From positions 1 to 64,000 of the forward strand of contig JACQXX010000127.1 in NCBI GenBank assembly GCA_016208495.1: a DNA stretch of 64,000 nt, read 5' to 3'. Below are positions 4,634 through 56,396 of the stretch, one piece after another. Position 1 is the first letter of the stretch, and every line of letters starts with the position of its first letter. Both the position numbers and the translations under genes were made by a program. This DNA is from Acidobacteriota bacterium. Its GTDB lineage: Bacteria > Acidobacteriota > Blastocatellia > Chloracidobacteriales > Chloracidobacteriaceae. A model generated the notes under the pieces. It did no database searches and was not told where the DNA came from. It saw only the letters and a program-made list of their open reading frames with translations.

Positions 4634-4640
4634 ACTGATT

Positions 4641-6283: not shown

Positions 6284-6291
6284 ATGTTTAC

Positions 6292-6413: not shown

Positions 6414-6887
6414 TCAGTGCAGGTGTCCGACGTTGCGATGACACTGCAGGCAATCTAATTGATTTTGTGGAAGTCCGTGCGGCTCAATTGCTTCCACAAT
6501 GCTGGTGTGGCATTTTCGGCAGGCATTTTCGGTAATTTCACGGTTATGCGGCTTAATTTGAATCGGTTCGTGAAACCAACCGGTGGTAAAGCCAAATGAA
6601 TGCCAGAATCCATTTGACGCTTTGTTGGCATATTTGGCCACAAAACCGGATGGAGTGTGACAATCATTGCAGGTCGCGGCGTTGCGATGGCTGGATTTCA
6701 CCCAGCCGTCAAACTGTTCCTGCATGATATGACAGTTGGCACAGGCGTTCGGATCGTTGGTCAAATAGGAATAGCCCTTGGCGTAAATAAAAGTATAAGA
6801 GCCGAGCCCTGTCGCCAGTCCAAGAATGACGCTGATCACAATCAGCTTGGTTTTGGTGAGCCTGGTTAGTCGGGTCGTGAATTTCAT
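6414..6887 (-). CDS. nrfH: NrfH, tetrahaem quinol dehydrogenase subunit
   Basis: The NapC/NirT-family membrane partner that takes electrons from menaquinol and hands them to NrfA. One N-terminal helix (about 15-38) is followed by four haem motifs, CANCH, CNDCH, CRKCH and CLQCH, at residues 49-53, 73-77, 123-127 and 146-150 counted from the ATG at 6887. The 157-residue length is typical. AGGTG five bases before this ATG favours it over the in-frame GTG at 6893. It is the first gene of the cluster, so the cluster promoter should lie in 6890-7300. Confidence 0.92.
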   Translation of the reverse strand: MKFTTRLTRLTKTKLIVISVILGLATGLGSYTFIYAKGYSYLTNDPNACANCHIMQEQFDGWVKSSHRNAATCNDCHTPSGFVAKYANKASNGFWHSFGFTTGWFHEPIQIKPHNREITENACRKCHTSIVEAIEPHGLPQNQLDCLQCHRNVGHLH

Positions 6888-6893
6888 AAGCAC

Positions 6894-7405
6894 CTATCTG
6901 TACCAATGTGGTTTTCCGTTTTCGGTTAAGATGGGATCACTTCCAGGTCACTGTCTCAATTTCGAGGTCAGTCAACGGATTGAATGCTTTGGGGGTATAT
7001 GCTACGGACTGAAGATGAGAATTCGCATACCGTTTTTCCTTTGCCTGGAGATTTTTTACAGAGCTTGCTGGGAATTGATTTTCCTGTCTGCAATCACTGT
7101 TCCAAAGCTGATTTTTCCCCAAAACAGGCTTTAAAGTTGCTTGCTGGATGCAACTTTAAGGAAGAATTCAGGAAAAATTCCCAGCCCGTCAAGGGTAGTG
7201 TGGATTTATTCGCGCCCAAAAGCTGAAAACTGCTCACTGCTGGAACTCAGATTTTCAAAGCAGGAAATCACATCGGCCTGATCAACTCTTTCCGCTTCAA
7301 AAGGGGAGTCTATAAACACTTGAGCCCCAGGGCTGTGACATAAGTCATTTTCCCTGGGGCTTTGCAGGATGGAGAAAAGGGGACATTTATCTTTTGGACA
7401 GAACT
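6894..7405. other. Intergenic region upstream of nrfH
   Basis: No gene recognised. It should contain the nrfH promoter, but no convincing -35/-10 pair or regulator site was identified. The only clear structure is the hairpin at 7323-7361. Confidence 0.5.
7323..7361 (-). terminator. Hairpin downstream of the FG-GAP gene
   Basis: Perfect 10-bp arms AGCCCCAGGG and CCCTGGGGCT are separated by 19 bases, 45 bases past the stop codon at 7406. There is no clear U tract, so it may be a factor-dependent terminator, an mRNA 3' stabiliser or a repeat remnant. Confidence 0.4.
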
Positions 7406-8629: not shown

Positions 8630-8783
8630 GGTGCTCTCTTCCTTGCTTCTTTTGGTTCTGGCGGTTTCCGGTGATCGAGGAGGGTGTCATCCTATCTGAT
8701 TTCAACGCGGGAGTTGTTAGGGCAAAGCAAAAAGAACGTTAAGAATGTTAAATGTCAAATTAGTCAGTCGTCAGTCGTCAGTA

Positions 8784-9023
8784 ATGCCAGTTAAGAGTTG
8801 AAAAAATTGTTCGTTGAAAACAAAGGGCTTATCAAAATCTCAAATTTCAGACGTTCAATCTGCTGTCTGTAAGTTGTTGATTTTGAAATCTCAATTTCAA
8901 CCCTTCATTCGCATCAGTGGGGAATGACCCGAATTCCCAGGGCTCGAAGACTCGCCCTGGGCTACGAGCCGGCACCCAGTTCCTGGGCTAAGAACCAAAA
9001 CGGCTTCAACTCTTAACTGGCAT
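8784..9023. mobile_element. 240-bp MITE with perfect 19-bp inverted repeats
   Basis: ATGCCAGTTAAGAGTTGAA at 8784-8802 and its exact reverse complement at 9005-9023 bound an AT-rich then palindromic interior. CAGTA occurs directly on both sides (8779-8783 and 9024-9028), as a 5-bp target duplication would. Removing the element and one CAGTA restores CAGTCGTCAGTAGTTCAC, the dispersed repeat seen elsewhere in the window. There is no coding capacity, so any movement would need a transposase in trans. Confidence 0.85.
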
Positions 9024-9130
9024 CAGTAGTTCACGAAGAGATCGTGGGGAAATCCAGTGGTTTAACCTGCGAAACACATGCCAGCCAATGGCCCAAGTGG
9101 AGTTTTGGAAGTCTCATGTGCATCAAGGGA

Positions 9131-9262
9131 AGGATTTGAGGCCCGAAGGGTCGTTGTTTAATAGCCGTGGTGCGAAGCCCACGGTTATAACCAGATCAAG
9201 GTCCCAGCCCGCCACGGGCGTCGTAAAATGATCAAAACCACAGGCTATTTTCCTTATCCTGG
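9131..9262 (-). repeat. Palindromic dispersed element, copy 2 (degenerate)
   Basis: On the minus strand it repeats the blocks of 320-473 in the same order: CCAGGATAAGGAAA, ACGCCCGTGGCGGGCT, ACCGTGGGCTTCGCACCACG and CGACCCTTCGGGCCT. The terminal inverted repeats have diverged. An open frame running through its right edge (9228-9494) is not regarded as a gene. Confidence 0.6.
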
Positions 9263-40791: not shown

Positions 40792-43700
40792 TTACCACTG
40801 AAAGGCTTCAATTCGGCCCAGGGCTGCCGCCAGATTGATGCGGGCGGCGGTGTACTGATAGAGCGCCGTGATGCGCGCATCACGGGCATTGGCCAGCGCG
40901 GTCTGGGCATTGGTGACTTCGATGTTGTCGCCAAGGCCGACTTCAAAGCGTTCACGAGCCAGTTCCAGTTCACGTTGGGCCAGCGAAAGCCCCTGTTCGG
41001 CGCTGGTTAATTGCGTTCCAGCCAGGGCCAGCGTCTTGACGGCCAGCCGAACATCCTGTTTGACCTGGGTTTGGACATCCGCCAGTTGAGCCAGTGCCTG
41101 CCGTTTGCGACTGGTACTTTCCAGGATTCGACCATACGTGGCACCACCATCAAAAATTGGAACGTTGACCCGAACGCCAAAAGTACGCGTTGGCAGCGTC
41201 AGTTGACCTGGGCGCGGACCGCTCAGCCCATAATCGGCAACGGCTTCGACCGATGGGGTCCAGTCGGCCTGCGAAGCTTTTTGGTCAAGTTCCTGACGCT
41301 TGAGTTCGTGGCCGGCAATTTGAACTTCCAGCCGTTCGGTGAGCGCTGATTCAATCGCTTTCTGTTCTTCCGGGAGCGTTTCGGGCAAATACCGGAGTTC
41401 ACTCGTCAACACCAGGTTTTGATCAAGTGGTAACCCCGTAACTCGGAGCAGGCCCAGCCGGGCGCGTTCGGCATTGGTTTCAGCCTGGACCCGTTTGACT
41501 TCTTCATCAGAAAGTCGTGTCCCGGCCCGGACGACATCCAGAGCGGTTGCCAGCCCGGCATCACGCTGGTTTTGCGCCAGTTTGAGCAGGGAACGGGCGA
41601 GTTCGACATTGGCCTGGGCGGCTTTGACAGATTGTTCAGCCCGGACAAGCTCCAGATATCCAAGGAGCGCGGCATTTGTGACCTGTTCTTTGGCAAATAC
41701 CAGTTGGGAATCAGCGATTTTCTTTTCAATTTGACTGCTCTGGTACCGTCGAATGGCTGACAGGCTAAACAGGTTTTGAACCAGCTCCAGTCGAGCGTCA
41801 AACGTGTCATAGGCAAACACCGCCGACTGACCCGCCAGCAACTCAGGCGGAAATCCTTGAGCCGCCAGGTTGACCGAGGTATTCAACCGACCAACCCGGC
41901 CAGAGACATTGGGCAACAGGGCCGAAAGCGATTGCCACACCCGGCCCTGAACTTCCTGGCGCTGCTCCTGGGCCAGAATTGTCTGAAGATTGTTCTTGAC
42001 GGCCAGTTCGATGGCTCGCTCCGGCGTCAACGAAAGTGGTTCAAGGTGTGGTTCAGGAGACACCACTGATGTCGCTGGAAGTGGTGAAACTGCTTGAGGT
42101 TGTGTCAACCCAGCCAGCACAAGGCCAGGGATGTGGAGTTTGCGTCTTGAAGACCCAACGAGGGGCTGGGGGCTGGGGGCCAGGGGTTGGGGGATAGACA
42201 TAATTTCCCCATATCCTCGTGTCGCGCCGTTTTGTTCCTGGGCAGTCACTGGTGGACAAACCAGGAAGAGCGCCAGAATCAAACCAGTGGTGACTTTCAA
42301 CGCTTCAGCCGCCTTTGGTTTTCGAGAACTGGAAAAGAAACGGACCCACACTTCGCCAATTTGTTTCCAGCCTGCCCAGTTGGCCCAGTCGTCAAACACT
42401 GAGTAAAACACCGGCACGACCACCAGCGTGAGCAACAGACAGAGCGTTTGCCCGCCAACCACCAGGACGCCAATTGAGCGGTTAGTTCCAGCGCCAGGGC
42501 CGGTTGCCAGAATTAACGGCAACATGCCAGCCACAAAGGCAATGGTTGTCATCAGGATTGGCCGCAAGCGTTCGCGGTTGGCCTGCAAAATCGCTGCCAG
42601 CCGATCCATTCCTTTGGCTCGCAGGCCGTTGGTGTGGTCAATTTGCAAAATGGCGTTTTTCTTCACCACGGCAAACAGCACCAGCAACCCAAGTCCTGAA
42701 AAAATGTTGAGTGACTGCCCGGTGACCAAAAGCGAGAGCAAACCGAAGGGAATCGCCAGCGGCAGCGTGAGCAAAATAGTGACCGGATGGATAAATGATT
42801 CAAACTGGGCTGCCAGCACGATGTACATAAAGATAAAGGTCAGGGCAAACGCCAGCACGAAATAGAAGGCAGCGTCATTGAGTTCTTTGGCATCGCCCGC
42901 GAGAACTCGCGAATATCCTGGCTCCAACTCAAGACCAGCAAAAACCTGGTCAATCTGGGTGGTAACTTCTGACAGCGACCCGCCCGGCGCAATGTTGGCC
43001 AGCAGGGTCACCTGACGTTGCCGGTTGAGACGTTCGATAACGGCGGGCCCGCGGCTTTCAACAAACGACACCACGTTTTCCAAAGGCACCGCTCCGGACC
43101 GGGTTGAAGGCACCGTCATTTGGGCCAGTTGCTCGGGCTTGATGCGCTGGGCTTCAAGCGCCCGCACGCGAACCTCAAACTGGTCATTTCCACGGGTCAG
43201 CCGCGACGCTTCGACTCCGGCCACAAAAATATTGAGTGACGTGGCGATGTCTTCGACCGCCACACCCAGGTCAGCCGCACGCTGGCGATCAATCACGGCC
43301 CGGACTTCGGGTTGCCCAAGTGCGAGCGTTGAGTCAATGTCCACCAGGTTTGGAATTTTCTTGAGCTGTTCTTTCAGGGTGTCGGCATACAGTCCCAGCT
43401 TTTCCAGGTCGGGACCGTTCAAAACATATTGAACGGTCGAATTGCGATATCCGCCGCCTGAAAACGGAGGCACTGGTTGCAGACTGGTTCGCCACTCTTT
43501 CGGATAGCGAGCCAGCAACTCGCGGGCTTTGACAATCAGTTCGGCCTGCGAGGCGTCGCGTTCGTGGATTGGACGCAGCTTGACATAGATATAGGCGTTG
43601 TTGGCTTCCTGTTGTTCACCGCTTCCAATTGTGGTCAGCGTGTCGGTCACACCGGGAAGCGCGCGCAAATCGGTGGCAACTCGCTCCAGCAGGGTTGAGG

Positions 43701-45426
43701 TCTGGGCCAAGGTGGTGCCTTCAGGCATCCGGAGGTTGATCTCAAACTGTGATTCGTCATCCAGCGCAATAAAATCACCGCCCACCATTCCACCAATCGG
43801 CACCACCGACACGATGACCAGAACACAGACGGCAATCACTGTTTTGCGATGGGTCATAGACCAGTGCAGCAGCCGTGTATACCACTGCTCAACCGGGCCA
43901 AACCAGCGATCAGCCGGAGTCTTTGCCTCGTGTCCATCTTCTTTGGAATGTGGTTTTAAGATCCGAGCACACAGCATCGGTGTCAGGGTAAATGACACCA
44001 GCATCGAGATGCCGACCGAAGCGGCGGCGGTCAATCCAAACGGCGCCAAAAAGCGGCCCACAATACCGCCCATAAACGCGGTTGGAATAAACACCGCCAT
44101 CAAGGAAAGCGTCGTGGCCAGTACAGCCAGTCCAATCTCACGGGTGGCTTCGATGGCTGCCGGAAATGGCGCAAAGCCTTTTTCACGGATAAATCGCTCG
44201 ATGTTTTCAAGCACCACAATTGCATCGTCAATCACCACACCCACCATCAGCGTCAATGCCAGCAGGGTAATGATGTCGAGCGTGTATCCAAAGGCCGCCA
44301 TCAGGGCAAAAGTTCCAATGATTGAAATTGGAATGGCAATCCCGGCAATGAGTGTGAGCCCAAATCGCCACAAAAACAGAAATACAATCAAACAGGCGAG
44401 CAGGCTGCCTTCAAAAAGGTGGGTTTTGACATCATTCACGGCGGCTTCGACAAAAACCGACTGGTCGGAAACAATCTGAAAGGTGACATCAGAGGGAAGG
44501 GTTGGGCGGATTTCTTCCAACCGCTCTTTGACGGCGCCAATCACGGCAACAGTATTTTCACCAGAACGCTTTGAAATCAAAAGAGTTACGGCTGACTGGC
44601 CATTGAGCAACGAAAGCGAGCGTTGTTCTTCAGTACCGTCTTCAATCGTGGCAATATCGCGCAGTCGCACCACGAAGTCACCGCGCTGGATGACCGGAAT
44701 CGTTTCAAAATCTGGCACTTCCAGCAGTTTCCCCAGGGTGCGGAGGGTAAATTCCTGGCTTCCCTGAGGAATTCGGCCACCTGGAACTTCAAGATTCTGG
44801 CGGCGAACCGCTTCGACAACTTCGACGGCTGATACACCATAGGCTCGCATTCGGTCTGGATTGACCAGGACTTTGATCTCGCGCTTGTTGCCACCGATGA
44901 TGCGGACCTGTCCGATTCCGGGAATGTTTTCGATCCGTTCCTTGATCAACTTTTTGGCGATGTCGGTTACCTGCACCAGTGGTCGAGGCGCTGCCACCGC
45001 CACCTGCATCACTGGCGAAGAGTTGGTTTCAAACTTCTGAACCGTCGGGGTCTCAATCGTTTTGGGAAGATCGGAAATGACCAGATTCACTTTGTCACGA
45101 ACTTCTTGAGCCGCGACGTCAAAGTTTTTATCCAGATTGAACTGGATAAACACCTGGGACACACTTTCAACCGAAGTTGATCGTAACTCTTTGATTCCAC
45201 TGATGGTATTGACCGCAGCTTCGATCTTATCGGTAATTTCGGTTTCGATTTCAGCCGGAGACGATCCCGGATTGGCCACCGTCACCGTGATGACCGGAAA
45301 ATCTACCTTCGGGAAACGATCCACTCCCAGTGAAAAGTAAGAAAATGCACCAGCCACCGTCAGTGCCAGGATCAGCATGGTGGCAAAAACCGGGCGATTG
45401 ACACAGATTTCGGCTAATTTTTGCAT
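40792..45426 (-). CDS. RND efflux pump fused to a TolC-like outer-membrane channel
   Basis: A single frame of 1544 residues. Residues 1 to about 1040 are a complete HAE1/AcrB-type inner-membrane pump with N-terminal helix, two porter loops and TM4 acidic pair in GVVIDDAIVVLENIERF. Then comes a basic stretch, a hydrophobic segment ending PPVTAQE (about 1043-1065) that looks like a signal peptide, a linker, and an outer-membrane factor domain (about 1100-1544; LTPERAIELAVKNN and two TolC-like coiled repeats). I see no stop or frameshift at the junction. The product may be cut at the internal signal to give two proteins. The frame extends upstream to 45528 but those residues come from a repeat; the ATG at 45426 begins the normal RND N-terminus. 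Second gene of the TetR-controlled operon. Confidence 0.9.
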   Translation of the reverse strand: MQKLAEICVNRPVFATMLILALTVAGAFSYFSLGVDRFPKVDFPVITVTVANPGSSPAEIETEITDKIEAAVNTISGIKELRSTSVESVSQVFIQFNLDKNFDVAAQEVRDKVNLVISDLPKTIETPTVQKFETNSSPVMQVAVAAPRPLVQVTDIAKKLIKERIENIPGIGQVRIIGGNKREIKVLVNPDRMRAYGVSAVEVVEAVRRQNLEVPGGRIPQGSQEFTLRTLGKLLEVPDFETIPVIQRGDFVVRLRDIATIEDGTEEQRSLSLLNGQSAVTLLISKRSGENTVAVIGAVKERLEEIRPTLPSDVTFQIVSDQSVFVEAAVNDVKTHLFEGSLLACLIVFLFLWRFGLTLIAGIAIPISIIGTFALMAAFGYTLDIITLLALTLMVGVVIDDAIVVLENIERFIREKGFAPFPAAIEATREIGLAVLATTLSLMAVFIPTAFMGGIVGRFLAPFGLTAAASVGISMLVSFTLTPMLCARILKPHSKEDGHEAKTPADRWFGPVEQWYTRLLHWSMTHRKTVIAVCVLVIVSVVPIGGMVGGDFIALDDESQFEINLRMPEGTTLAQTSTLLERVATDLRALPGVTDTLTTIGSGEQQEANNAYIYVKLRPIHERDASQAELIVKARELLARYPKEWRTSLQPVPPFSGGGYRNSTVQYVLNGPDLEKLGLYADTLKEQLKKIPNLVDIDSTLALGQPEVRAVIDRQRAADLGVAVEDIATSLNIFVAGVEASRLTRGNDQFEVRVRALEAQRIKPEQLAQMTVPSTRSGAVPLENVVSFVESRGPAVIERLNRQRQVTLLANIAPGGSLSEVTTQIDQVFAGLELEPGYSRVLAGDAKELNDAAFYFVLAFALTFIFMYIVLAAQFESFIHPVTILLTLPLAIPFGLLSLLVTGQSLNIFSGLGLLVLFAVVKKNAILQIDHTNGLRAKGMDRLAAILQANRERLRPILMTTIAFVAGMLPLILATGPGAGTNRSIGVLVVGGQTLCLLLTLVVVPVFYSVFDDWANWAGWKQIGEVWVRFFSSSRKPKAAEALKVTTGLILALFLVCPPVTAQEQNGATRGYGEIMSIPQPLAPSPQPLVGSSRRKLHIPGLVLAGLTQPQAVSPLPATSVVSPEPHLEPLSLTPERAIELAVKNNLQTILAQEQRQEVQGRVWQSLSALLPNVSGRVGRLNTSVNLAAQGFPPELLAGQSAVFAYDTFDARLELVQNLFSLSAIRRYQSSQIEKKIADSQLVFAKEQVTNAALLGYLELVRAEQSVKAAQANVELARSLLKLAQNQRDAGLATALDVVRAGTRLSDEEVKRVQAETNAERARLGLLRVTGLPLDQNLVLTSELRYLPETLPEEQKAIESALTERLEVQIAGHELKRQELDQKASQADWTPSVEAVADYGLSGPRPGQLTLPTRTFGVRVNVPIFDGGATYGRILESTSRKRQALAQLADVQTQVKQDVRLAVKTLALAGTQLTSAEQGLSLAQRELELARERFEVGLGDNIEVTNAQTALANARDARITALYQYTAARINLAAALGRIEAFQW

Positions 45427-45442
45427 AATTGATGACCATTTT

Positions 45443-45594
45443 GGGGTTCCGGGTTCCGGGTATGAAAAAAACAAAAAGGACAAAAAGGACGAAAAGGACG
45501 AAAAGGGAACAAGGTGAAGTAAAAGCACTATTGCGTTGAACCTCGCCTGCTTTCGAAAACCCTGAACCCTGAACCCCGAACCCTGAACCCTGTA
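45443..45594. repeat. Heptamer-armed palindromic element (copy I)
   Basis: Left arm TTCCGGGTTCCGGG, core with repeated AAAAAGGAC/GAAAAGGAC, right arm CCCTGAACCCTGAACCCCG and more. The right arm ends directly at the stop codon of the adaptor gene, inside the efflux operon. Confidence 0.8.
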
Positions 45595-46906: not shown

Positions 46907-46920
46907 ACCGTCCAGACGGT
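46907..46920. promoter_or_regulatory. TetR operator upstream of the efflux operon
   Basis: ACCGTCCAGACGGT, an inverted repeat apart from its centre, 13 bases before the adaptor ATG. The same 14-bp sequence, with one mismatch at an edge, occurs twice in the promoter of the neighbouring TetR gene. It should block transcription or initiation of the efflux operon when bound. Confidence 0.85.
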
Positions 46921-46998
46921 TTGTAAAAAAATGAAGACAGTCACCCAATAAAAAGAATGAAGAATGAAGAATGAAAAAAAGTGGTTAGTGGTTAGTGC

Positions 46999-47218
46999 TT
47001 AGGGACTGTAAAAATACAACTTCCCGTTTTTATCGAAAGTCACCCGGAGAGATCCAATTTCAGAACAGGAAACCACGAAAAAACACGAAAAACACGAAAA
47101 AGAAATCTAAAGACTTCAATGGGTTCTGAGCTTTTGTCAGGGAAAGTGCCACCGAACTCAAAAGAAAATGGCTTCAACCCAAATGAAAATCGGGAAGTTG
47201 TTTTTTAACGCTCCCTTA
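46999..47218. mobile_element. About 220-bp MITE-like element
   Basis: Ends TTAGGGACTGTAAAAATACA followed by ACTTCCCG (left) and the inverted CGGGAAGTTGTTTTTTAACG followed by CTCCCTTA (right) match in about 23 of 28 positions. The interior has CACGAAAAA repeats and no gene. It lies between GTGGTTAGTG repeats and a TCACCTTATCAC repeat in the spacer between tetR and the adaptor gene. Confidence 0.6.
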
Positions 47219-47267
47219 GTCACCTTATCACTCTGTCACCTTGTCACCTTATCACTCTGCCACCTTG

Positions 47268-47858
47268 TCATTTGTCACCCTGGGTCATCTCCAACATGAC
47301 CGCCACAAGGTTGTCCTGTTGTTCCTGAGACATCGTCCATAGGCCAAGCATTTTAAAAAAGAACATCGCATCCGAAGCCAGCGCCGCAATCAACGCCGGA
47401 GTTGGGGTAAGGCTGTCCTGGGCCATCAATTCATACCAGCCGTGCAATTTTTCCCGGAAAGGACCAACCAGTTCGTGGTTATTGGCGACTGCAGCCAGAA
47501 TCGCGGCGCCAACTGAAAAATTCTCCTGGGTCGCATTGGCCGGGTCGAGGTTTGATTTGATGTAGGCTCTGGCCCACGAACCAGGAATATCACCTTCAGT
47601 TTCCCGATGATTGAGCAAAATGGCTTCATACTCGGAACACAAGGAATCAACCATCCCCTGGATCAGGGCTTCCTTGGTTTTAAAGTGGTAGAGCACTCCA
47701 CCTTTACTCACGCCCGATTCACGTGCCACGGCGTCAATCGTCAGTGCATTGACCCCGTCACGAACAACGATTTGTTGCGCGGCCTGTAAAATTGCAATCC
47801 TGGTGTTGGCGGCAGCCGTGGCAATTTGAGCGCGTGATTTTCGGGGGGCTTTTTCCAT
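47268..47858 (-). CDS. TetR family transcriptional repressor of the efflux operon
   Basis: A 196-residue TetR regulator. The N-terminal HTH is clear (LTIDAVARESGVSKGGVLYH, about 39-58) and is followed by FKTKEALI; the rest is the helical ligand-binding domain. The gene precedes the adaptor and pump genes on the same strand. Its own promoter is overlaid by a 46-bp palindrome containing two copies of the operator found before the adaptor gene, so it almost certainly represses itself and the pump and is released by a pump substrate. Inducer unknown. Confidence 0.92.
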   Translation of the reverse strand: MEKAPRKSRAQIATAAANTRIAILQAAQQIVVRDGVNALTIDAVARESGVSKGGVLYHFKTKEALIQGMVDSLCSEYEAILLNHRETEGDIPGSWARAYIKSNLDPANATQENFSVGAAILAAVANNHELVGPFREKLHGWYELMAQDSLTPTPALIAALASDAMFFFKMLGLWTMSQEQQDNLVAVMLEMTQGDK

Positions 47859-47899
47859 AAGTTTTCAATTTTTTTGCGAGTGGGAATAAGTGTTGTATG

Positions 47900-47951
47900 C
47901 ACCGTCCGTCTGGACGGTATATATATACCGTCCAGACGGACGGTGTGTCAA
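47900..47951 (-). promoter_or_regulatory. TetR gene promoter overlapped by a 46-bp palindromic operator
   Basis: A perfect palindrome spans 47900-47945, centred on ATATATAT, and contains CCGTCTGGACGGT and its inverse. On the minus strand TTGACA (47951-47946), an 18-base spacer and TATATA (47927-47922) form a near-consensus sigma-70 promoter; the spacer is one operator half, so binding would shut off the promoter. Confidence 0.88.
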
Positions 47952-47962
47952 CAGAAAAATCC

Positions 47963-48146
47963 TGGGTTTGGGGTTCAGGGTTCAAGGTTTAGAAAAAAAA
48001 AGGACATCAAGGACCAAAAAGACATAAAGGACATAAATTCAAAAACCCGGAACCCGAAATCCTGACAAGATGACCGACTGACAAGGTGACAAGATGATTT
48101 CTTTCATCCTTCATCCCTCATCCCTTCAGGAACCCGGAACCCGAAG
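47963..48146. repeat. Heptamer element (copy J) and a second CCCGGAA arm
   Basis: GGGTTTGGGGTTCAGGG, a core with AAAGGACATCAAGGACC and GACATAAAGGACATAAAT, then AACCCGGAACCCGAAA. After a GACAAGGTGACAAGATG repeat and a TTCATCCTTCATCC repeat, a second arm AACCCGGAACCCGAAG ends two bases before the stop codon of the Rieske gene. Confidence 0.75.
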
Positions 48147-48148
48147 AC

Positions 48149-49171
48149 TCACACCCAAAATTCAATTTCGACCTTTTTCTCAGGCAGCAGGCGTGGGTCA
48201 CGACCAGCGGCAAGTTCGTTGCGGATTGATTCAATCAAGACGTGGATGGTGTCGGCTTCGGTGTTGGAAAATTCAGCTCCAAACTGGCGAATCGTCTGCA
48301 TCTGGTTGTTCAAAATAGCAATATCCTGGTCAATGATACGTTGGGCCAACCAGCGAATCAGTGGCCGTGCCGGGAGATTCCAGATACCATAGTTGTAGGT
48401 CAAATCCGTATAAACCAGCGTTTCGTCATCACTCACTGGAATTGATTGTGAAGTAATGATAAAGCGTCGTTTTTGGCTGAAAATATAATCAACCGAAGTG
48501 ATATTTGGCAGATGGAATGAATCAGTGTGCTGGATTTCGCGAGCCGTGGGGTTCAGAAACTTTGAAAACCACCCAAAATTGGACCGTTCGTTGTGATACG
48601 CAACCACCACGGAACCGTTTTTTCGGGTGATCTGAGCGGTAAATCGTTCGGCTTTGGCATCGCGGAAAATGCGGGGATGAACAAAGGTGGTATGCGGAAT
48701 ATCAACAAAATTCTCGACACAATTGGTCACGGTATTGTGAAAGCGGTTTTTAAGTCGAATAGCTGCCCAACCAGGAGTTCCATAAAAGGGAATCGCAAAG
48801 GGGGAAAACTGATGTTCGCAGGTTTGGGAGAGCCTGACATAGAGATACCCATCCTGCTCACATACCGGAAAGCTCCGAGCACAACGATTTTTTCGAACTT
48901 TGCTTTCCGGGCCTTCAGATGGAACACTTACCACCTGTCCCATTCCATCATAGATCCAGCCGTGATACCCACACTGAAGCTTCCCGGCATGTACTTTTCC
49001 AGTTGAAAGCTGTGCACAGCGATGCAGACAGCGATCTTCGAGCGCGACTGGGCGGCCCGTCTCATCCCGAAACAAAACGAGCCATTCGTCCAAAATTTGA
49101 ACCGGCCAGAGGCAATCTGATCGGAGGTCTTTTGATTCGGCAGCAATGTACCAGAAGTCTTTGAAATCCAT
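48149..49171 (-). CDS. Rieske non-haem iron oxygenase
   Basis: A 340-residue oxygenase alpha-subunit-like protein. The [2Fe-2S] Rieske centre is Cys48-x-His50 and Cys67-x2-His70 (CLHRC and CGYHGW); the mononuclear iron site has Asp157, His160 and His165 in NFVDIPHTTFVHP. The size fits one-component-type Rieske enzymes (VanA, PaO or KshA-like) that need a separate reductase or ferredoxin. A 2Fe-2S ferredoxin gene is directly upstream on the same strand. Likely a monooxygenase or demethylase acting on an organic substrate that the cluster does not reveal. Confidence 0.9.
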   Translation of the reverse strand: MDFKDFWYIAAESKDLRSDCLWPVQILDEWLVLFRDETGRPVALEDRCLHRCAQLSTGKVHAGKLQCGYHGWIYDGMGQVVSVPSEGPESKVRKNRCARSFPVCEQDGYLYVRLSQTCEHQFSPFAIPFYGTPGWAAIRLKNRFHNTVTNCVENFVDIPHTTFVHPRIFRDAKAERFTAQITRKNGSVVVAYHNERSNFGWFSKFLNPTAREIQHTDSFHLPNITSVDYIFSQKRRFIITSQSIPVSDDETLVYTDLTYNYGIWNLPARPLIRWLAQRIIDQDIAILNNQMQTIRQFGAEFSNTEADTIHVLIESIRNELAAGRDPRLLPEKKVEIEFWV

Positions 49172-49189
49172 GGGTGGTTAGATGGGGCT

Positions 49190-49222
49190 GAAAAAACCGG
49201 GGCTCAGGGCTCAGCCCTGGTT
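49190..49222 (-). terminator. Hairpin with U tract after the ferredoxin gene
   Basis: On the minus strand an inner stem AGGGCT/AGCCCT and an outer AAAACC/GGTTTT pair are followed by TTTTTT, just past the stop codon at 49226 and before the Rieske start. It may reduce read-through into the Rieske gene. A related hairpin is at 3585-3609. Confidence 0.45.
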
Positions 49223-49225
49223 TTC

Positions 49226-49537
49226 TCATCCCAGGTATTTCACCTTCAAGGAAGCTGTCAATTGCAATTGACAGGCAAGCCGGGCCCGTGGATTGGCGGG
49301 CGCAACGATGTCGAGGACTTCGAGTTCATCGGGGAGCGGGTCAGCCAGATGGCCGTCCGAAACGTCTTCGATTTCAATCAAACAGGTGCCACAAATTCCG
49401 GTTCGGCAGCCAAATAAAATCGGTGAGTTCCCAACATCCAGATGATCAGCCAGCCACTCGCCTTCCGGCAATGTAACTGGTGGTAACGGGCTTTGGCTAT
49501 AAGAAATTTCTTTGAAGGGTCGTGATTGATTGGACAT
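49226..49537 (-). CDS. Plant-type [2Fe-2S] ferredoxin
   Basis: A 103-residue electron carrier. The cluster motif is FGCRTGICGTC plus the distal Cys in RLACQ, the usual C-x4-C-x2-C...C arrangement. The ATG at 49537 is chosen because the 24 further residues of the open frame are translated from a heptamer repeat (RTLNPKPRTLNP). It lies between the diiron oxygenase gene and the Rieske gene and is the obvious electron donor to one or both. No reductase gene is nearby. Confidence 0.88.
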   Translation of the reverse strand: MSNQSRPFKEISYSQSPLPPVTLPEGEWLADHLDVGNSPILFGCRTGICGTCLIEIEDVSDGHLADPLPDELEVLDIVAPANPRARLACQLQLTASLKVKYLG

Positions 49538-49542
49538 TAAAT

Positions 49543-49644
49543 CAGGGTTCAGGGTTCGGGGTTTGGGGTTCAGGGTTCGGGAAAAGGACAAAAGGGACAT
49601 AAAGGACATAAATTCGAAACCCTGAAACCCGAAACCCGAACCCT
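49543..49644. repeat. Heptamer-armed palindromic element (copy L)
   Basis: TCAGGGTTCAGGGTTCGGGG, a core with AAAGGGACATAAAGGACATA, and CCCTGAAACCCGAAACCCGA ending at the stop codon of the diiron oxygenase gene. It fills the gap to the ferredoxin gene. Confidence 0.85.
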
Positions 49645-50841
49645 TTAAAAGTCTATTTCCCGAAAGAACGCTTTCAACGCCTTTTGGTTGGTCTTCAGAT
49701 GTTCGGTAATTGAATTGCGGCCCATGATTGTCATTTCGCGGTTGGTCTGGTCAACATATTGCAGGTCAGCCAGGTACTCTTTATACGATTCCATGGCAAT
49801 TTCACGGCTTTTGGCACTCAGGTGTAAGCCTTCTGATTCTTCAGCAAAACAGCGCCACATCATTTGACGAGCCTCGGCATCAGTCATCGAAAAGAGTGGT
49901 GATCGCAAAATCTCATACACGTTCCGAAACAGCGCCGGGTCATACCAGAACAACCCGTTTACCGCCGTTGAGAAATGAAAATGGTCCCGCTGTGTGCCGT
50001 GGAGCGTCCGATTGGCAACCCATTTTTCAAATGGAGTTGGATCGGGCAAGGCGGTCAAAACATCATGCGAAATGATCGTCGAACTGTTGAAATGAAACGA
50101 TTCGTCCAAAAAGTGGAAGTAGCTGATTTGGGCTGGGACCGGTGAGGTTTCCTTCTCAGGTGAACGGGCGTAAAACTGGCTCAATTTGTGTTGAACGAGT
50201 TTCCCGTTAAGCGTTCGAACTCCGCGAACGGCAAAATACTGACAGGCAATAAAGGCATTATTTGATGACAGTAACGAATAGGAATTGAGTTGGAGTTGTC
50301 GCCAGAAGTCCATCACCCGGTTGCTATTGCGAAACATCATGGTTGCCACATACGGACCTCGCATTGGGTAGGTAAACAACCGTTTGCCAAATACCGCCAG
50401 TTCAAAAGCTTCACCAATGGTTTTAAAGGCGTTGATATGCGCTCGTTCCTGGGCAGATTCCAGGTCGAGGATATCACACACGGTCCGGAAATCTTCCAGG
50501 GCGTAAAGTCCTGCCGCACTGGTCTGATTAAAGAAAATAGTCGCGATTTCAGCCGAAATAATCTGTGAATAATAGGCCACCCAGTACAACTGGTTTAATT
50601 TGATGCGCTGCTCACTCGTGGCGCTCTCCCACAATGGCGTGGCAAAGAGCAGTGAAAAGGCTTCTGGATTCCAGTACTGATCCTGACAGGTCTTAAAATC
50701 AAACTGTACTGCCAGGCGATCTATTTCCTGAGTGCTGTCCTGGTCACGATTTTTCCGGAGATTCAGCTCCAATTTGCGACAGGTTTTCTGGTCGTCAAGG
50801 AGTGAACGGCGAGTTAGCGGGTGAGAGAAAGTGTGGTTCAT
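49645..50841 (-). CDS. Probable AurF-like diiron oxygenase
   Basis: 398 residues, mostly helical. Possible diiron ligands follow the AurF/CmlI pattern of paired carboxylate and histidine motifs: SAEIATIFFN, then ESAQERAHINAF, EAFE, and later DESFHF and EESEGLH. The family oxidises amines to nitro groups or hydroxylates substrates. The ATG at 50841 is preferred, 44 bases after the stop of the upstream ferritin-like gene; the longer frame to 50985 would overlap that gene by 101 bases. Assignment rests on motif pattern and on the adjoining iron enzymes. Confidence 0.6.
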   Translation of the reverse strand: MNHTFSHPLTRRSLLDDQKTCRKLELNLRKNRDQDSTQEIDRLAVQFDFKTCQDQYWNPEAFSLLFATPLWESATSEQRIKLNQLYWVAYYSQIISAEIATIFFNQTSAAGLYALEDFRTVCDILDLESAQERAHINAFKTIGEAFELAVFGKRLFTYPMRGPYVATMMFRNSNRVMDFWRQLQLNSYSLLSSNNAFIACQYFAVRGVRTLNGKLVQHKLSQFYARSPEKETSPVPAQISYFHFLDESFHFNSSTIISHDVLTALPDPTPFEKWVANRTLHGTQRDHFHFSTAVNGLFWYDPALFRNVYEILRSPLFSMTDAEARQMMWRCFAEESEGLHLSAKSREIAMESYKEYLADLQYVDQTNREMTIMGRNSITEHLKTNQKALKAFFREIDF

Positions 50842-50884
50842 GGAAATAGCCTGATCAAGCCGGTTTTGGCATCGAATAGATTCG

Positions 50885-51811
50885 TCACCAGACCGGGAGC
50901 GAATCACCAAAAGTTGCCCTTCCTGGAGTAAAACACCCTTTTGCGTCCAGGGTTTCAACCAGATTGGAAGTTGCGGGAACAGCACGAATCAAATTCTGAA
51001 TCAGCCGAAGTTTTCTCAAAGTTGATTCTTCGGCGTCGAGTTCACAATAAAGGCGCGATTTTTGGGATAAGGAAAGGTGGCCTTTTACCTGCTCAACCTG
51101 ACCCAAAACCATGACCGGACCAATTTGAATCATCCGCAGAAACACCATCACGATTTCCGCAATCCGATCAAGAGCTGGCGCGGCAAACATCCGCTCAGAA
51201 CAAAGAACAACCCCGCTCCCATGATGGCGGGCTTCATCTTTTAAAATTCGTTCCAGAACACCACCAAAATCAGGCATGAGACAGGCTTTGGCCAGGTTCC
51301 GGTAATGGGCAATTCCCCAGCCCTCAAGAACAACTTGAATCAAAAATTGCAACACGGCGGGTGATTCGGTTTCAAGGATCTGGGCTAAAAATGTGACAAA
51401 GGGGTTTTCAGAGGGTGATGAAACGGTTGTGAGACCGAGAAACTGAGAAATCAATTGAAAATGGGTGGCTTCCTCAGCCGCAAACTGGCAATACAGCATC
51501 TGGGTTTCCAACGATTCGGCCATCAGGGCCATTTTCGGGGCAAAATACATGCCACATTTTTCAATCCAAAACGCTTCTTCGAGGATGGCTCGACTGCACC
51601 CAGCCAGAATTGCCGATCGTTCTTCAACTGTAGCTTCCTGGAAGATCTGTGACCGATCAAGCTGAAAAAATGAAGCCGGCCAGAGCGGGCCCCGGTCAGT
51701 GGCCTGGTTGGCGAGTCCAACTTCTGGCACCCGTGAATCCAGAAGACGCTGGAGGCGATGGTGTTGATGTAGCTCTGGAAGTTCTAATCGAAGTGGAATC
51801 ATGTCGCCCAT
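50885..51811 (-). CDS. Ferritin-like diiron protein
   Basis: 308 residues with a four-helix ferritin-like core. Candidate ligands are Glu in ILEEAFWIEKCGMYF, EExxH in FAAEEATHFQLI, Glu in LEGWGIAHY and DExxHH in KDEARHHGSG, a complete diiron set. There is no signal peptide. First gene of the minus-strand iron-enzyme group, with GAGAG before the ATG. It could be an oxygenase, an oxidase or an iron-handling partner; substrate unknown. Confidence 0.7.
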   Translation of the reverse strand: MGDMIPLRLELPELHQHHRLQRLLDSRVPEVGLANQATDRGPLWPASFFQLDRSQIFQEATVEERSAILAGCSRAILEEAFWIEKCGMYFAPKMALMAESLETQMLYCQFAAEEATHFQLISQFLGLTTVSSPSENPFVTFLAQILETESPAVLQFLIQVVLEGWGIAHYRNLAKACLMPDFGGVLERILKDEARHHGSGVVLCSERMFAAPALDRIAEIVMVFLRMIQIGPVMVLGQVEQVKGHLSLSQKSRLYCELDAEESTLRKLRLIQNLIRAVPATSNLVETLDAKGCFTPGRATFGDSLPVW

Positions 51812-52120
51812 CTCTCACATTCTCGAAGAATATCTCCCAACCAGGGGGCTCCCCCAACACAGTGGATGAAAGTCAGGTGGCTTCACAGAGTTTCCGCTCC
51901 CAGTCGTTATGTCAAGAGCAGATGTGACAGTTGCTCAATATTGACAAACACGACTAGCCTCATCTGACGGAATATGCTAAATAGCGAAATTCATTCCATC
52001 TTGCCAAACGTGCCTCCAAGAAATTCTCATCGCGTCAATTGTTCCGAGTAAATTGGCAATGAACCTGGATAATTTTAAAGGTTCGCCCCTACCCAAGCCT
52101 TTTCTTTTCTATTGTTTCCT
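51812..52120. other. Divergent spacer between the iron-enzyme group and the desaturase gene
   Basis: No gene, no heptamer repeat. It must contain promoters for both directions; no confident -35/-10 pair was picked. Confidence 0.5.
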
Positions 52121-53041
52121 ATGCTTGCAGGATCAAAATTCACTTCTCAGTTGTTCAAGACCGTTGCCTCCCTGGTTCAATGGATCGATTCTGACTTTGC
52201 CAGTAAAAAGCTCAAGGAAATGGATTTACCTGATCGGGTTGACCTGATTCGGACCGTTCCGTTCATTGCCTTGCACCTGATGTGTCTGGCGGTGTTTATT
52301 GTGGGTTGGAGCTGGACGGCTGTCCTGACAGCGATTGCGCTGTATTTTGTCAGGATGTTTGCCATCACCGGGTTCTATCATCGCTATTTTTCGCATAAGA
52401 CATTCCATACCTCCCGGATAGCACAATTCCTGTTTGCGGTGCTTGGGGCTTCAGCCGTCCAACGCGGCCCGCTCTGGTGGGCCTATATCCACCGTCATCA
52501 CCACCAACATTCAGACAAAGAAGGCGACTTTCATTCACCTATCCAGCGAGGGTTTTGGTGGTCTCATATCGGCTGGATTACCAGCCCCAGGAATTTTCCA
52601 ACTGATTATAACCGGGTTCGTGATCTGGCCAAATTCCCAGAACTGGTCTTCCTGAACCGGTTTGACACACTTGTTCCGACCGCGCTGGCAGTTGGGTTGT
52701 TTTTCTTTGGAAAAGTGTTGGAATGGTATGTTCCAGGCGCCGGTACAACCGGGGTCCAGATGCTGGTGTGGGGTTTTTTTGTGAGCACCACCGTGCTCTT
52801 TCACGCCACCGCTTCGATCAATTCCTTAGCCCACCTTTTTGGCCGCCGCCGATTTCAAACCGGTGACTGGAGTCGCAACAATTTTCTTTTGGCCTTGATC
52901 ACCTTGGGCGAAGGTTGGCACAACAATCACCACAAATATATGTCAACCATGCGAGCCGGCATTCGCTGGTGGGAGATTGATATCACGTTTTATGTGCTGA
53001 AAATGATGTCCTGGATGCGGATTATCTGGAATGTGAAGTGA
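52121..53041 (+). CDS. Membrane acyl-CoA/acyl-lipid desaturase
   Basis: A 306-residue integral membrane fatty-acid desaturase of the delta-9 type. The three histidine boxes are HRYFSH, HRHHHQHSD and HNNHHKY, and hydrophobic pairs lie before and after the first two boxes. It introduces double bonds into acyl chains using O2 and reduced ferredoxin or cytochrome b5. The start at 52121 has no strong ribosome site. It diverges from the ferritin-like gene; the 2Fe-2S ferredoxin in that group could serve it. Confidence 0.92.
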   Translation: MLAGSKFTSQLFKTVASLVQWIDSDFASKKLKEMDLPDRVDLIRTVPFIALHLMCLAVFIVGWSWTAVLTAIALYFVRMFAITGFYHRYFSHKTFHTSRIAQFLFAVLGASAVQRGPLWWAYIHRHHHQHSDKEGDFHSPIQRGFWWSHIGWITSPRNFPTDYNRVRDLAKFPELVFLNRFDTLVPTALAVGLFFFGKVLEWYVPGAGTTGVQMLVWGFFVSTTVLFHATASINSLAHLFGRRRFQTGDWSRNNFLLALITLGEGWHNNHHKYMSTMRAGIRWWEIDITFYVLKMMSWMRIIWNVK

Positions 53042-53119: not shown

Positions 53120-54595
53120 TCAGTATTTCGGAACACTCGGATCAACATCAGTTGACCAGGCGGTGATGCCGCCTTTGAGGTTGATCAACCGGCCAGGAAA
53201 GCCCGCTTCTTTGAGTTGAGCAATTGCTTTTGCGCTCCGACCACCCATTTTGCAATGCACCACGGTTGTCAGTGTCGGGTCAATTTCAGATTGACGACCG
53301 ACGACCTGCCCAAGCGGGATCAGTTTGGTATAAGGTAAGCGTGCGATTTCATATTCATAAGATTCACGCACGTCAATAATTTGCAGGTTCTCTCCGGCAT
53401 CAATCCGCTGTTTTAATTCCACGGCTGTGATTTCAGCCAGTTCATCTTTTGGTGAACTGCCAGGAGTTGCTGGAGGAGGCTTTAATCCGCAGAATTCCTC
53501 ATAGTCAATCAAGGCATTGATCGTGCGGTTTGGACCGCAAATCGGGCAATTTGGGTCTTTGCGCAGTTTCAATTCCTTAAAACGCATCCGCCACGCGTCA
53601 AAATGAATCAGCCGATTGATCAGGGTATCTTCAGCCCCAAGAATAATTTTGATCACTTCAGCCGCCTGAATCGAGCCAACAATCCCTGGTAAAACCCCCA
53701 AAACGCCGCCTTCGGCACAAGATGGAACCAATCCGGGCGGAGGAGGTTCAGGATAAAGACACCGGTAGCAGGCGCCTTTTTCGGCCCAAAACACCGTGGC
53801 CTGCCCCTCAAACCGGAAGATTGAGCCATACACATTTGGCTTGCCCAACAATACACAGGCATCGTTGACCAGATAGCGGGTCGGAAAATTGTCAGTTCCA
53901 TCCACAATCACATCATAATCCTGGAACAATTCCAGGGCATTCTGGCTGGTCAGGCGTGTTTCGTAGGGAATCACTTCAATATGTGGGTTGATGTCCAGCA
54001 ATCGGTCGCGGGCTGAGGCAATTTTGGGGCGGCCAACATCTTTCGTTCCGTGGATAACCTGCCGTTGCAAATTTGAGGCATCAACCACATCAAAATCAAC
54101 AATTCCCAGGTGACCCACGCCGGCTGCGGCCAGATACAAGCCCAGTGGAGCGCCTAGACCACCGGTCCCAATCATCAGAACCCGGGCGGCTTTCAACTTT
54201 TTTTGACCTTCAATCCCAACTTCAGGAAGGATCAAATGCCGGCTATATCGGGCCAGTTCAGCATTTGAAAGCTCGACAGCACTGCTTTGGCAGGTTTCTG
54301 TAACACATTCCTCAACCTCCACACCTCCGGCAATTGCGGGAACGATCATGACGGTATCACCATCCTTGATTGGGGTTTCCAATCCTGATGAATGGCGAAT
54401 ATCCGTATCATTCACATACACATTCACAAAGCTCCGCAGTTTGGCAGCGTCACTGTACAGATGTTTGCGAAGATCGCCGTGGGTAGTGGTGAGAAAGGTT
54501 AAGGCATCCGCCACCGTCGTGGCATCGCATGAAAACTCGGTGTTCCCGTTGGCAAACTGCCTGAGCGCGGTTGGAATGAAGATTGTCACTGACAT
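53120..54595 (-). CDS. Fusion of ubiquitin-like sulfur carrier, E1 (MoeB/ThiF) and rhodanese
   Basis: 491 residues in three parts. Residues 1-91 are a MoaD/ThiS/CysO-like ubiquitin fold ending in the characteristic Gly90-Gly91 (PAIAGG). Residues about 112-350 are an adenylating E1 domain with the nucleotide loop GTGGLGAP, CYRC and CPIC zinc pairs and the conserved Cys293 in PSCAEGGVLG. Residues about 390-485 are a rhodanese with active Cys448 in HCKMGGRS. Carrier, activator and sulfur donor are thus on one chain. The di-glycine is internal, so it must be released, probably by the JAMM peptidase encoded next, before thiocarboxylation. CAGGAG precedes the ATG. Role: protein-thiocarboxylate route to cysteine. 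Confidence 0.9.
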   Translation of the reverse strand: MSVTIFIPTALRQFANGNTEFSCDATTVADALTFLTTTHGDLRKHLYSDAAKLRSFVNVYVNDTDIRHSSGLETPIKDGDTVMIVPAIAGGVEVEECVTETCQSSAVELSNAELARYSRHLILPEVGIEGQKKLKAARVLMIGTGGLGAPLGLYLAAAGVGHLGIVDFDVVDASNLQRQVIHGTKDVGRPKIASARDRLLDINPHIEVIPYETRLTSQNALELFQDYDVIVDGTDNFPTRYLVNDACVLLGKPNVYGSIFRFEGQATVFWAEKGACYRCLYPEPPPPGLVPSCAEGGVLGVLPGIVGSIQAAEVIKIILGAEDTLINRLIHFDAWRMRFKELKLRKDPNCPICGPNRTINALIDYEEFCGLKPPPATPGSSPKDELAEITAVELKQRIDAGENLQIIDVRESYEYEIARLPYTKLIPLGQVVGRQSEIDPTLTTVVHCKMGGRSAKAIAQLKEAGFPGRLINLKGGITAWSTDVDPSVPKY

Positions 54596-54701
54596 AGATC
54601 AAGCTCCTGGAATTCGGTGAAATAGCATTGGATGGTTATTTTTTCGAAAAGTTCACTCTTTTGATTCAATCAATTACAAAAGAAAAATGATACAATTGAA
54701 G

Positions 54702-55148
54702 CTACCTGGCAACGAACACGCCATCACAGATCTCAAGCTGTTCCGGGTTAAATCGGCTCCGGTCAGCTTCCAGTTCCCACGATAACACATCCCCGGCCTG
54801 TCCTCTGGCTACCGCAACAATGATGTAGGAATACGTCGGCCAGGCATGGTCCTGGTCAAATCCAGAAGGGATAGCCGGGTGATCCGGGTGAGAATGATAA
54901 AATCCAACCACATCCAGTTTTTTTGATCGGGCATATCGCTCACCCTGCATTAATTCTTGCGGCAGAATCAAAAACCGATTGCGTTTGGCGGCTTCTTCAC
55001 GAGCATTTGAAATCGGATATACTTCGACGACCTGTTTTTTTCCATCGGTGGACAAGTGACCAATGAGCAGCCCGCAGCATTCGTATGGATAATCAGATTC
55101 TCCGTGATGCTGAATGGATTCAATATGTTCAGATGAAAGTTCAATCAC
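54702..55148 (-). CDS. JAMM/MPN+ metalloprotease, Mec-like
   Basis: A 148-residue zinc isopeptidase of the JAB/Mov34 type. All catalytic positions are present: Glu23, His85-x-His87, Ser95 and Asp98 (YHSHPDHPAIPSGFD). In the CysO pathway such an enzyme (Mec) removes the newly formed cysteine from the end of the carrier protein; here it could also cut the fused precursor after its di-glycine. The GTG at 55148 is favoured because GGAGGG lies four bases upstream; an in-frame TTG at 55160 would place that signal inside the gene. Flanked by the carrier-E1 fusion and cysteine synthase genes. Confidence 0.88.
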   Translation of the reverse strand: MIELSSEHIESIQHHGESDYPYECCGLLIGHLSTDGKKQVVEVYPISNAREEAAKRNRFLILPQELMQGERYARSKKLDVVGFYHSHPDHPAIPSGFDQDHAWPTYSYIIVAVARGQAGDVLSWELEADRSRFNPEQLEICDGVFVAR

Positions 55149-55187
55149 ATTTCCCTCCAAAAAATTTAGCAGGGTTGAAGGCTTCGT

Positions 55188-56144
55188 TCAGTCGGCGACT
55201 TCATCCCAAAAAGGATCACTCAAATGTCTGGTTCCTGAATCACATAAAATCGTGGCCACCACCGATCCAGGTTTGAGTTGCCGGGCTAACCTGATGGCGG
55301 CAAAAACATTGGCTCCAGTGCTAATACCAACAAAAATTCCGGCTTCACGGGCCAGCCGACGGGTTGTGGCCTGGGCATCCTCAGTTGACACTTCAACATT
55401 GTCATCAGCCAGATGCGGATTATAAATGCCAGGCACCAGTGCCGTCGCCATATGTTTCATGCCTTCCAGTCCATGCATGGGCAGGTCTGGCTGGACTGAA
55501 ATACATTGAATATCAGGGTTCAATTCACGGAGCTTGCGGGTGGTGCCGGTAAACGTGCCAGAGGTGCCAATCCCAGTGATGAAGTGCGTTAACCGTTCTT
55601 CGGTCTGGTGCCAGAGTTCAGGGGCCGTTGTACGGTAATGAGCCAGCCAGTTGGCCGGGTTGTTGTACTGATCAGGATAGAAATAAATCCCAGGATTGGC
55701 ATCAACCAGCCGGCGGGCTTCAATCTGTGCCCCATCTGACCCTTGAAGCGGATCAGTTTCGATGAGATGAGCGCCAAGTGCCCGCAAGATTCGCTTCCGT
55801 TCTGAACTCGCATTTTTTGAAATGCACAAATGGACCTGATACCCACGAGCAGCGCCGATCATGGCGTAGGAAATCCCGGCATTCCCACTGGTCGCGTCCA
55901 GAATAATTTTATCGTGGGTTAGCCGCCCCCGTTCTTCACCATCAAGGATGATTGACAAAATACCGCGATCTTTGACTGAACCACTTGGGTTGAGATACTC
56001 AGCTTTGGCATATAACTCGACACCGGCTGGAAGCTCTTTTTCAAATGCCCGGAGCCTGAGTAAAGGAGTATTCCCAACCTGGTCAATCAGATCATGGGTC
56101 ATTTTCAACCCTGGGGGTTGGCTTATTGTCGGGGACCGTTTCAT
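55188..56144 (-). CDS. cysM: PLP-dependent cysteine synthase, CysM-like
   Basis: A 318-residue beta-replacement enzyme that adds sulfur from a thiocarboxylated carrier or sulfide to O-phospho- or O-acetylserine. PLP lysine Lys58 is in NPSGSVKDRG; substrate loop SGNAG and phosphate loop GIGTSGTFTG are present. The ATG at 56144 has GGGAG eight bases upstream; an internal ATG at 56102 (MTHDLIDQVGNTPLL) is the other candidate. First gene of a three-gene unit with the JAMM peptidase and carrier-E1 fusion, matching the CysM-CysO-Mec system known in actinobacteria. Confidence 0.9.
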   Translation of the reverse strand: MKRSPTISQPPGLKMTHDLIDQVGNTPLLRLRAFEKELPAGVELYAKAEYLNPSGSVKDRGILSIILDGEERGRLTHDKIILDATSGNAGISYAMIGAARGYQVHLCISKNASSERKRILRALGAHLIETDPLQGSDGAQIEARRLVDANPGIYFYPDQYNNPANWLAHYRTTAPELWHQTEERLTHFITGIGTSGTFTGTTRKLRELNPDIQCISVQPDLPMHGLEGMKHMATALVPGIYNPHLADDNVEVSTEDAQATTRRLAREAGIFVGISTGANVFAAIRLARQLKPGSVVATILCDSGTRHLSDPFWDEVAD

Positions 56145-56396
56145 GAAGATAGCTCCCATTGCGAACTCCCATACCACCTAAAAAATCATGAGATTATCAC
56201 TATAACGTCATCTTGTACGCTATATTTTCACTTCAAGTCAATCAGAGGCCGCAGGTTGGGCACCTGATTCAAGCCTGATTCAGTTTGGTAGCGGGAATGT
56301 TGGATTACTGACTGTTACCAATGACGGAAAGAACAGGTGGGTGAATGAGATACTGGACGAATCGGCGGGGAAGAACTCAATCCTGGCAATAGCGAC

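Follow-up and report, generated by a model that had tools for sequence, protein, structure and literature searches.

A conserved redox operon in an Acidobacteriota genome

We analyzed a 64,000-nt stretch of DNA (hereafter, the window) that represents contig C127 in the 8.4-Mb draft genome of an Acidobacteriota bacterium. On its minus strand, four consecutive genes encode a ferritin-like diiron protein (FERR), a putative CylC-type diiron enzyme (AURF), a [2Fe-2S] ferredoxin (FDX) and a Rieske oxygenase (RO). This set is a genuine unit, conserved across many phyla far beyond chance, and the window operon belongs, as an Acidobacteriota representative, to the "Rieske-containing" class of CylC clusters, known mainly from cyanobacteria. 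We favor, as rather probable, the interpretation that these genes supply the redox operon for a conserved pathway that makes an oxidized fatty amide or aminolipid, and whose genes lie in a single cluster in other genomes.

Read along the minus strand from 51811 to 48149, the gene order is FERR, AURF, FDX and RO. The first gene of the operon, FERR (50885..51811), encodes a 308-aa protein that matches Pfam Ferritin_2 at 7.2e-5, slightly under the cut-off. AURF (49645..50841; 398 aa) is a predicted diiron (dimetal-carboxylate) C-H-functionalizing enzyme of the Rieske-cluster clade, as assigned from its motifs, profile match and fold, and its ATG at 50841 is the likelier start because the mechanically listed one at 50985 overlaps the upstream gene. 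FDX (49226..49537), 103 aa long when read from its ATG at 49537, is a plant-type ferredoxin (Pfam Fer2, 2e-7) and presumably an electron carrier; a start at 49609 would give a longer protein but extends into an intergenic repeat. RO (48149..49171; 340 aa) is a Rieske non-heme iron oxygenase of the VanA_C type (Pfam Rieske, 1.1e-21; VanA_C, 1.2e-10). If translation begins at 50841 for AURF and at 49537 for FDX, the intergenic gaps measure ~43, 107 and 54 bases, which fits a single operon. Promoter and terminator scans performed no better than shuffles. Between genes, the region 46953-49640 carries many short arrays of differing 7-base units (AAGAATG, AGTGGTT, GGGTTCA, TTCATCC, TCAGGGT and CGAAACC).

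A scan for AURF over 84,980 species, each represented by one genome, rendered 121 confirmed relatives, and the loci of the best 80 were analyzed. The latter proteins are 55-70% identical to AURF and belong mostly to Nostocales and other cyanobacteria, whose members largely fall between 56 and 62%. Non-cyanobacterial homologues are not rare (23 of the best 80 loci) and derive from Acidobacteriota, Elusimicrobia, Bacteriovorax and Halobacteriovorax relatives, Bdellovibrionaceae, Accumulibacter, gammaproteobacteria, Planctomycetota, Myxococcota, Melainabacteria and one doubtful bin. One cluster-bearing locus, titled Streptomyces griseus (L031), lies in a 3.2-Mb bin whose name is probably wrong. 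Flanks of at least 5 kb on either side are available at 58 loci, of which 56 carry FDX, 54 FERR and 49 RO; all three accompany AURF in 47. In 73 of the 80 loci, FDX is a close neighbor of AURF and shares its strand. The original prediction, which had placed these genes together on one strand with a histidine-box desaturase diverging from them, was borne out in coordinates and domains; of the five-gene co-occurrence it expected, the four-gene part stood (47/58 loci) and the desaturase part fell, as detailed below.

Eusebio et al. 2021 (PMC8406957) grouped 36 of 95 cyanobacterial CylC clusters into the orphan Rieske-containing class, the largest of their orphan classes. The notion that no pathway with such a gene set had been described thus did not survive, although these clusters are product-less. 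Most of them encode a protein of the sterol desaturase family, and none contains an acyl carrier protein (ACP) or FAAL; the clusters were suggested to act on fatty acid intermediates, and related ones in Synechocystis were described as having their remaining functions dispersed over the genome (PMC8406957). The window's genome shares with the class a single CylC homologue accompanied by Rieske proteins and a sterol-desaturase-superfamily protein, with no carrier protein, and cyanobacterial members constitute the largest group of AURF homologues. The two to four Rieske proteins that define the class along with the single CylC homologue are present genome-wide (RO in the window and a second one, RO2, on contig C159) though not within the locus, and the sterol desaturase (FA_hydroxylase) family protein is encoded outside the window, on contig C13. 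The location of all genes in one cluster, customary yet not universal in the class, does not apply here, as they are spread over contigs C127, C13, C71 and C159 of an acidobacterial genome. Given the dispersal reported for Synechocystis (PMC8406957), we file this genome as a dispersed member of the class.

Metal ligands and predicted folds

Alignments revealed that the predicted metal ligands of AURF, namely E98, Q131-E132-xx-H135 and H243-xx-D246-E247-xx-H250 (398-aa numbering), are invariant in 81/81 homologues. The same holds for E84, E114-xx-H117, E163 and E193-xx-H196 of FERR in 65/65 homologues, which conform to the pattern of ferritin-like diiron oxidases/oxygenases, that is, two E...ExxH helix pairs contributing four carboxylates and two histidines. 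In RO, the Rieske residues C48/H50/C67/H70 and the additional residues D157/H160/H165/D283 are invariant in 66/66 homologues, and the four cysteines of FDX are conserved in at least 64 of 65. Judged by sequence, the iron sites of all four proteins are therefore real, and both diiron candidates of the original prediction keep their ligands.

The AlphaFold2 models of AURF (pLDDT 90.2) and FERR (pLDDT 90.0) yielded AurF-like and R2/ADO-like folds, respectively, in line with the structural check that had been proposed. The top solved match of the AURF model was AurF (3chh; Z 17.9, 4.0 Å over 286 residues), and CmlI was also retrieved, both ~2 Z units above R2 proteins; a sequence search of PDB chains with AURF gave no match. 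For FERR, three solved folds (R2, R2lox and aldehyde-deformylating oxygenase) scored equally at Z ~18, so that its fold does not name a reaction.

AurF being the best solved fold, and a weak match to PF11583, would suit an AurF-type N-oxygenation of an aromatic amine, the substrate type that the original prediction had entertained besides a lipid. However, AURF scores 23.9 bits against a Pfam AurF cut-off of 29.6, and shares with the arylamine N-oxygenases AurF and CmlI the ferritin-like diiron helix-bundle (Z ~17-18) at only ~12% identity and in a different genomic context, which here is of the fatty-acid type. Moreover, AurF Asp135 corresponds to Gln131 of AURF, and the seventh ligand Glu196 to Gln217. 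Since the glutamine at the Asp135 position is of the halogenase type, an aromatic amine substrate is not favored, and with the clear CylC-type kinship described below we regard N-oxygenation as very improbable.

AURF is a predicted CylC-type enzyme with a glutamine at one active-site position

The diiron enzymes CylC and NocO add chlorine to unactivated carbons in fatty acyl chains; NocO depends on nine active-site residues, of which seven lie within QExxH and HxxDExxH, and glutamine replaces AurF Asp135 (PMC12101540). In a preprint, the extended motifs ExxQExxH and HxxDExxH were used for annotation, and the glutamine of the former was described as halogenase-specific (PMC12871659). AURF carries both motifs (E128-xx-Q131-E132-xx-H135 and H243-xx-D246-E247-xx-H250), invariant throughout its clade. 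For comparison, we took CylC-type paralogues from four cyanobacteria in which the Rieske type is present as well; the neighbors of these paralogues include ACP, FAAL or polyketide synthase (PKS) genes. AURF aligned with these four proteins by hhalign with a probability of 100 (E 3.6e-64, 382 columns, 30% identity), and pairwise identity was ~28%. Taken together, the motifs, nine-residue alignment, profile match and AurF-like modeled fold identify AURF as a predicted CylC-type diiron enzyme.

Of the nine active-site residues of CylC/NocO, eight are identical in AURF and the ninth, a glutamate, is replaced by Gln217. This glutamine, at the position of NocO E252 and CylC E283, is invariant in 81/81 members of the AURF clade, whereas all four carrier-type CylC proteins examined have glutamate; in that of locus L163, this residue even bears the same number, 283, as in CylC. 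As read from the alignments, the clade-wide Glu-to-Gln change sets the AURF branch apart from proven halogenases. Glutamine at the E252 position occurs in a small subset of CylC homologues (PMC12101540), which very probably is the AURF clade, so that this residue does not decide family membership. AURF thus shares its predicted fold, motifs and most of the active site with CylC and NocO, and differs from them in this residue and in having no ACP partner.

These features bear on whether a halogen is added at all. In one version of the same pathway, the AURF clade would not halogenate but, with glutamine in place of glutamate, would hydroxylate, desaturate or epoxidize a free fatty chain rather than one bound to a carrier. 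The invariance of the glutamine argues for this, as do the inactivity of NocO E252A (PMC12101540) and the lack of ACP and FAAL in the cluster, a feature also of the clusters in PMC8406957. Retention of the glutamine deemed halogenase-specific in ExxQExxH (PMC12871659) argues against it, and so does the counting of the E-to-Q subset among CylC homologues (PMC12101540). We give this version, which is compatible with an oxidized fatty amide or aminolipid as product, about even chances. A more speculative view, which we hold only tentatively, is that the clade constitutes a carrier-free branch of diiron halogenases chlorinating or hydroxylating a membrane fatty amide, and hence that halogenated or highly oxidized aminolipids have been overlooked in cyanobacteria, Acidobacteriota, Bdellovibrio relatives, Elusimicrobia, Myxococcota and others. 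A carrier-free relative of diiron halogenases would also be useful as a catalyst for C-H functionalization.

Predicted scaffold-building partners adjoin the operon in most other genomes

We clustered the proteins encoded around AURF at 57 loci with full flanks, as delimited by gene calling. Extra Rieske proteins occur in 54 of these loci, 36 of which total three Rieske proteins. Other recurrent neighbors are a GNAT-like protein (49 loci), an FA_hydroxylase (48), a hexapeptide protein (44), a GH3 protein (41) and, less often, an SDR (8). Nineteen loci encode a family of short proteins, and a single member of this family matched Mpo1-like (2-hydroxy fatty acid dioxygenase). The absence of scaffold-building genes noted in the original prediction therefore applies to the operon itself, whereas in most other genomes GH3, hexapeptide acyltransferase and GNAT-like genes adjoin it, and here they lie on other contigs.

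The nearest curated models (Pfam, NCBIfam) are OlsH for the cluster GH3 and OlsE for the cluster FA_hydroxylase, and in relative G014 the GH3 protein retains the N-terminal, central and C-terminal GH3 domains. The bacterial GH3 protein OlsH joins ornithine and fatty acids into lyso-ornithine lipid (PMC12493201). Ornithine-lipid enzymes and the clusters under study thus have in common a GH3-type amide synthetase and an FA_hydroxylase-family hydroxylase within one pathway, and differ in that the clusters comprise many more oxygenases. No mention of a GH3 ligase is made in the main text of PMC8406957. The formation of lyso-ornithine lipid by OlsH, together with the fatty acyl chains that are the proven substrates of CylC and NocO, supports a fatty lipid as substrate; the multi-step oxidative pathway anticipated in the original prediction is supported, probably on a lipid, albeit with four genes rather than five.

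Instead of a membrane lipid, the same enzymes could join a fatty acid and an amine into a small, diffusible natural product acting as a signal or an antibiotic. AURF is present in only 3 of 396 sampled Acidobacteriota and 5 of 98 related genomes, and otherwise in scattered phyla; this patchy distribution suggests horizontal transfer, typical of accessory metabolism. On the other hand, among the clustered neighbors of AURF we found no ACP or FAAL, and no recurring family of nonribosomal peptide synthetases, PKSs, carrier proteins or dedicated exporters, and the OlsE- and OlsH-like partners point to membrane aminolipids. A diffusible product is hence conceivable, at roughly one chance in three.

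Scattered counterparts in the window's genome track AURF

Profile searches for the remaining pathway modules in the window's genome, which holds one AURF, located them on three further contigs. An SDR, a hexapeptide protein and an OlsE-like hydroxylase, 61, 60 and 56% identical to cluster members, are encoded on C13, the latter two side by side. C159 carries the second Rieske protein, orthologous to RO2 of the clusters (66% identity, 522 bits), and on C71 a GNAT-like gene (41%) adjoins a GH3 gene (32%). Some of this splitting over C127, C13, C71 and C159 could reflect the draft assembly, though the GNAT-GH3 and C13 loci lie well inside contigs. In the region of the second Rieske gene (L132; C159, 261-5472), genes for a DyP-type peroxidase and a cytochrome P450 are close by.

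These scattered homologues track AURF closely across the 98 relatives. The hexapeptide family (>300 bits) is present in exactly the five AURF genomes (hypergeometric probability 1.5e-8, a calculation that, like those that follow, treats genomes as independent and ignores shared ancestry). The second Rieske protein (>500 bits) appears in four of the five, the fifth being a fragmented assembly, and nowhere else (1.4e-6), and the GNAT-like family in four of the five plus one other genome (6.9e-6). Furthermore, pairwise distances of AURF correlate with those of every other member (r 0.57-0.93 without cyanobacteria; 0/2000 permutations).

A relative lacking AURF, G026, harbors a sister cluster (L128; contig C34, ~1644-9217) with GNAT-like, AurF-family, FA_desaturase, hexapeptide, Rieske, SnoaL-like and GH3 genes and no CylC-type gene; its AurF-family protein matches at 2e-14, above the Pfam cut-off. 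This arrangement suggests that the scaffold is shared and the oxygenases are interchangeable, and the cluster perhaps encodes a related pathway equipped with other oxygenases.

A putative route to an oxidized fatty amide or aminolipid

From the observed gene families, metal ligands, linkage, co-occurrence and co-divergence, we infer the following substrate, order of steps and electron routing. A GH3-type ligase would activate a fatty acid with ATP and couple it to an amine or amino acid to give an amide, and the hexapeptide and GNAT-like acyltransferases would complete the lipid scaffold. The CylC-type enzyme would then act at an unactivated C-H bond of this scaffold or of its fatty acid by chlorination or hydroxylation. 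FERR, two to three Rieske oxygenases and the OlsE-like membrane hydroxylase may oxidize the scaffold or fatty acid stepwise, with the SDR converting a hydroxyl into a ketone. The ferredoxin would pass electrons from a general reductase to the diiron and Rieske enzymes. Overall, the pathway probably oxidizes a fatty-acid-derived lipid, and it might also chlorinate it.

Several observations weigh against this proposal. The cluster GH3 of G014 scores 49.6 bits against the OlsH cut-off of 620 (NCBIfam NF052613), and the cluster hydroxylase 72 bits against 475 for OlsE in NCBIfam; being far under these cut-offs, they fix neither the amine nor the site of hydroxylation. The GH3 (32%) and GNAT-like (41%) proteins of the window's genome are divergent, and a comparable pair exists in a relative that lacks AURF, so that the pair on C71 may serve another pathway, a caution reinforced by the G026 cluster. 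With the loci dispersed, single members are less firmly linked to one another, and our literature search retrieved no characterized product or activity for any member of the Rieske-containing class.

The Rieske proteins themselves raise a further alternative. RO has NdmA, dicamba monooxygenase and SxtDIOX/SxtT as its closest solved relatives, and the best curated match of the Rieske proteins is NCBIfam SdmA (73 and 95 bits). Along with the SDR and the FA_hydroxylase-superfamily protein, this would be compatible with sterol or hopanoid tailoring by methyl oxidation. Nonetheless, these scores are far under the SdmA cut-off of 600, and we know of no role for GH3, GNAT-like or hexapeptide proteins in sterol or hopanoid routes, which renders such tailoring improbable.

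The fatty amide or aminolipid that we propose provides the largest, product-less class of cyanobacterial CylC clusters with a testable prediction, namely an oxidized, perhaps chlorinated, compound of this kind. Its basis is the co-inheritance of the GH3 ligase, OlsE-like hydroxylase, hexapeptide acyltransferase and GNAT-like protein, even when their genes are scattered.

Neighboring genes outside the set

The gene diverging upstream of the operon, DES (52112..53041, plus strand), encodes an acyl-CoA-type fatty acid desaturase (FA_desaturase; match to acyl-CoA desaturase 4ymk at 8.6e-27). We rejected it as a fifth member, as no homologue lies at any of the 80-odd AURF loci. DES is present in 37 of the 98 relatives, and the closest of these, itself devoid of AURF, has a 71% identical orthologue with neighbors other than those in the window. 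No similarity was detectable between DES and the desaturase of the G026 sister cluster.

A TetR gene (47268-47858) and an RND pump were likewise discarded, since neither family recurs beside the operon elsewhere. The perfect palindrome ACCGTCCAGACGGT maps at 46907-46920, upstream of an adaptor gene, and a related double copy at 47901-47946, upstream of the TetR gene. These sites are likely operators, by prediction, through which TetR controls itself and the pump in a separate TetR-RND unit. The pump is encoded by a single 1578-aa open reading frame (40792-45528, minus strand) in which an AcrB-type RND pump (residues 40-1045) is fused to a TolC-like outer membrane efflux domain (to ~1571), downstream of the HlyD-type adaptor gene; pump and outer membrane channel are thus joined in one polypeptide. 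On the other side of DES, consecutive minus-strand genes (53120-56177) encode a ThiS-ThiF/MoeB-rhodanese fusion, a JAB (Mov34) protease and a CysM-type cysteine synthase, and resemble the CysO-Mec-CysM sulfur-carrier route to cysteine, except that carrier and activating enzyme form a single protein here.

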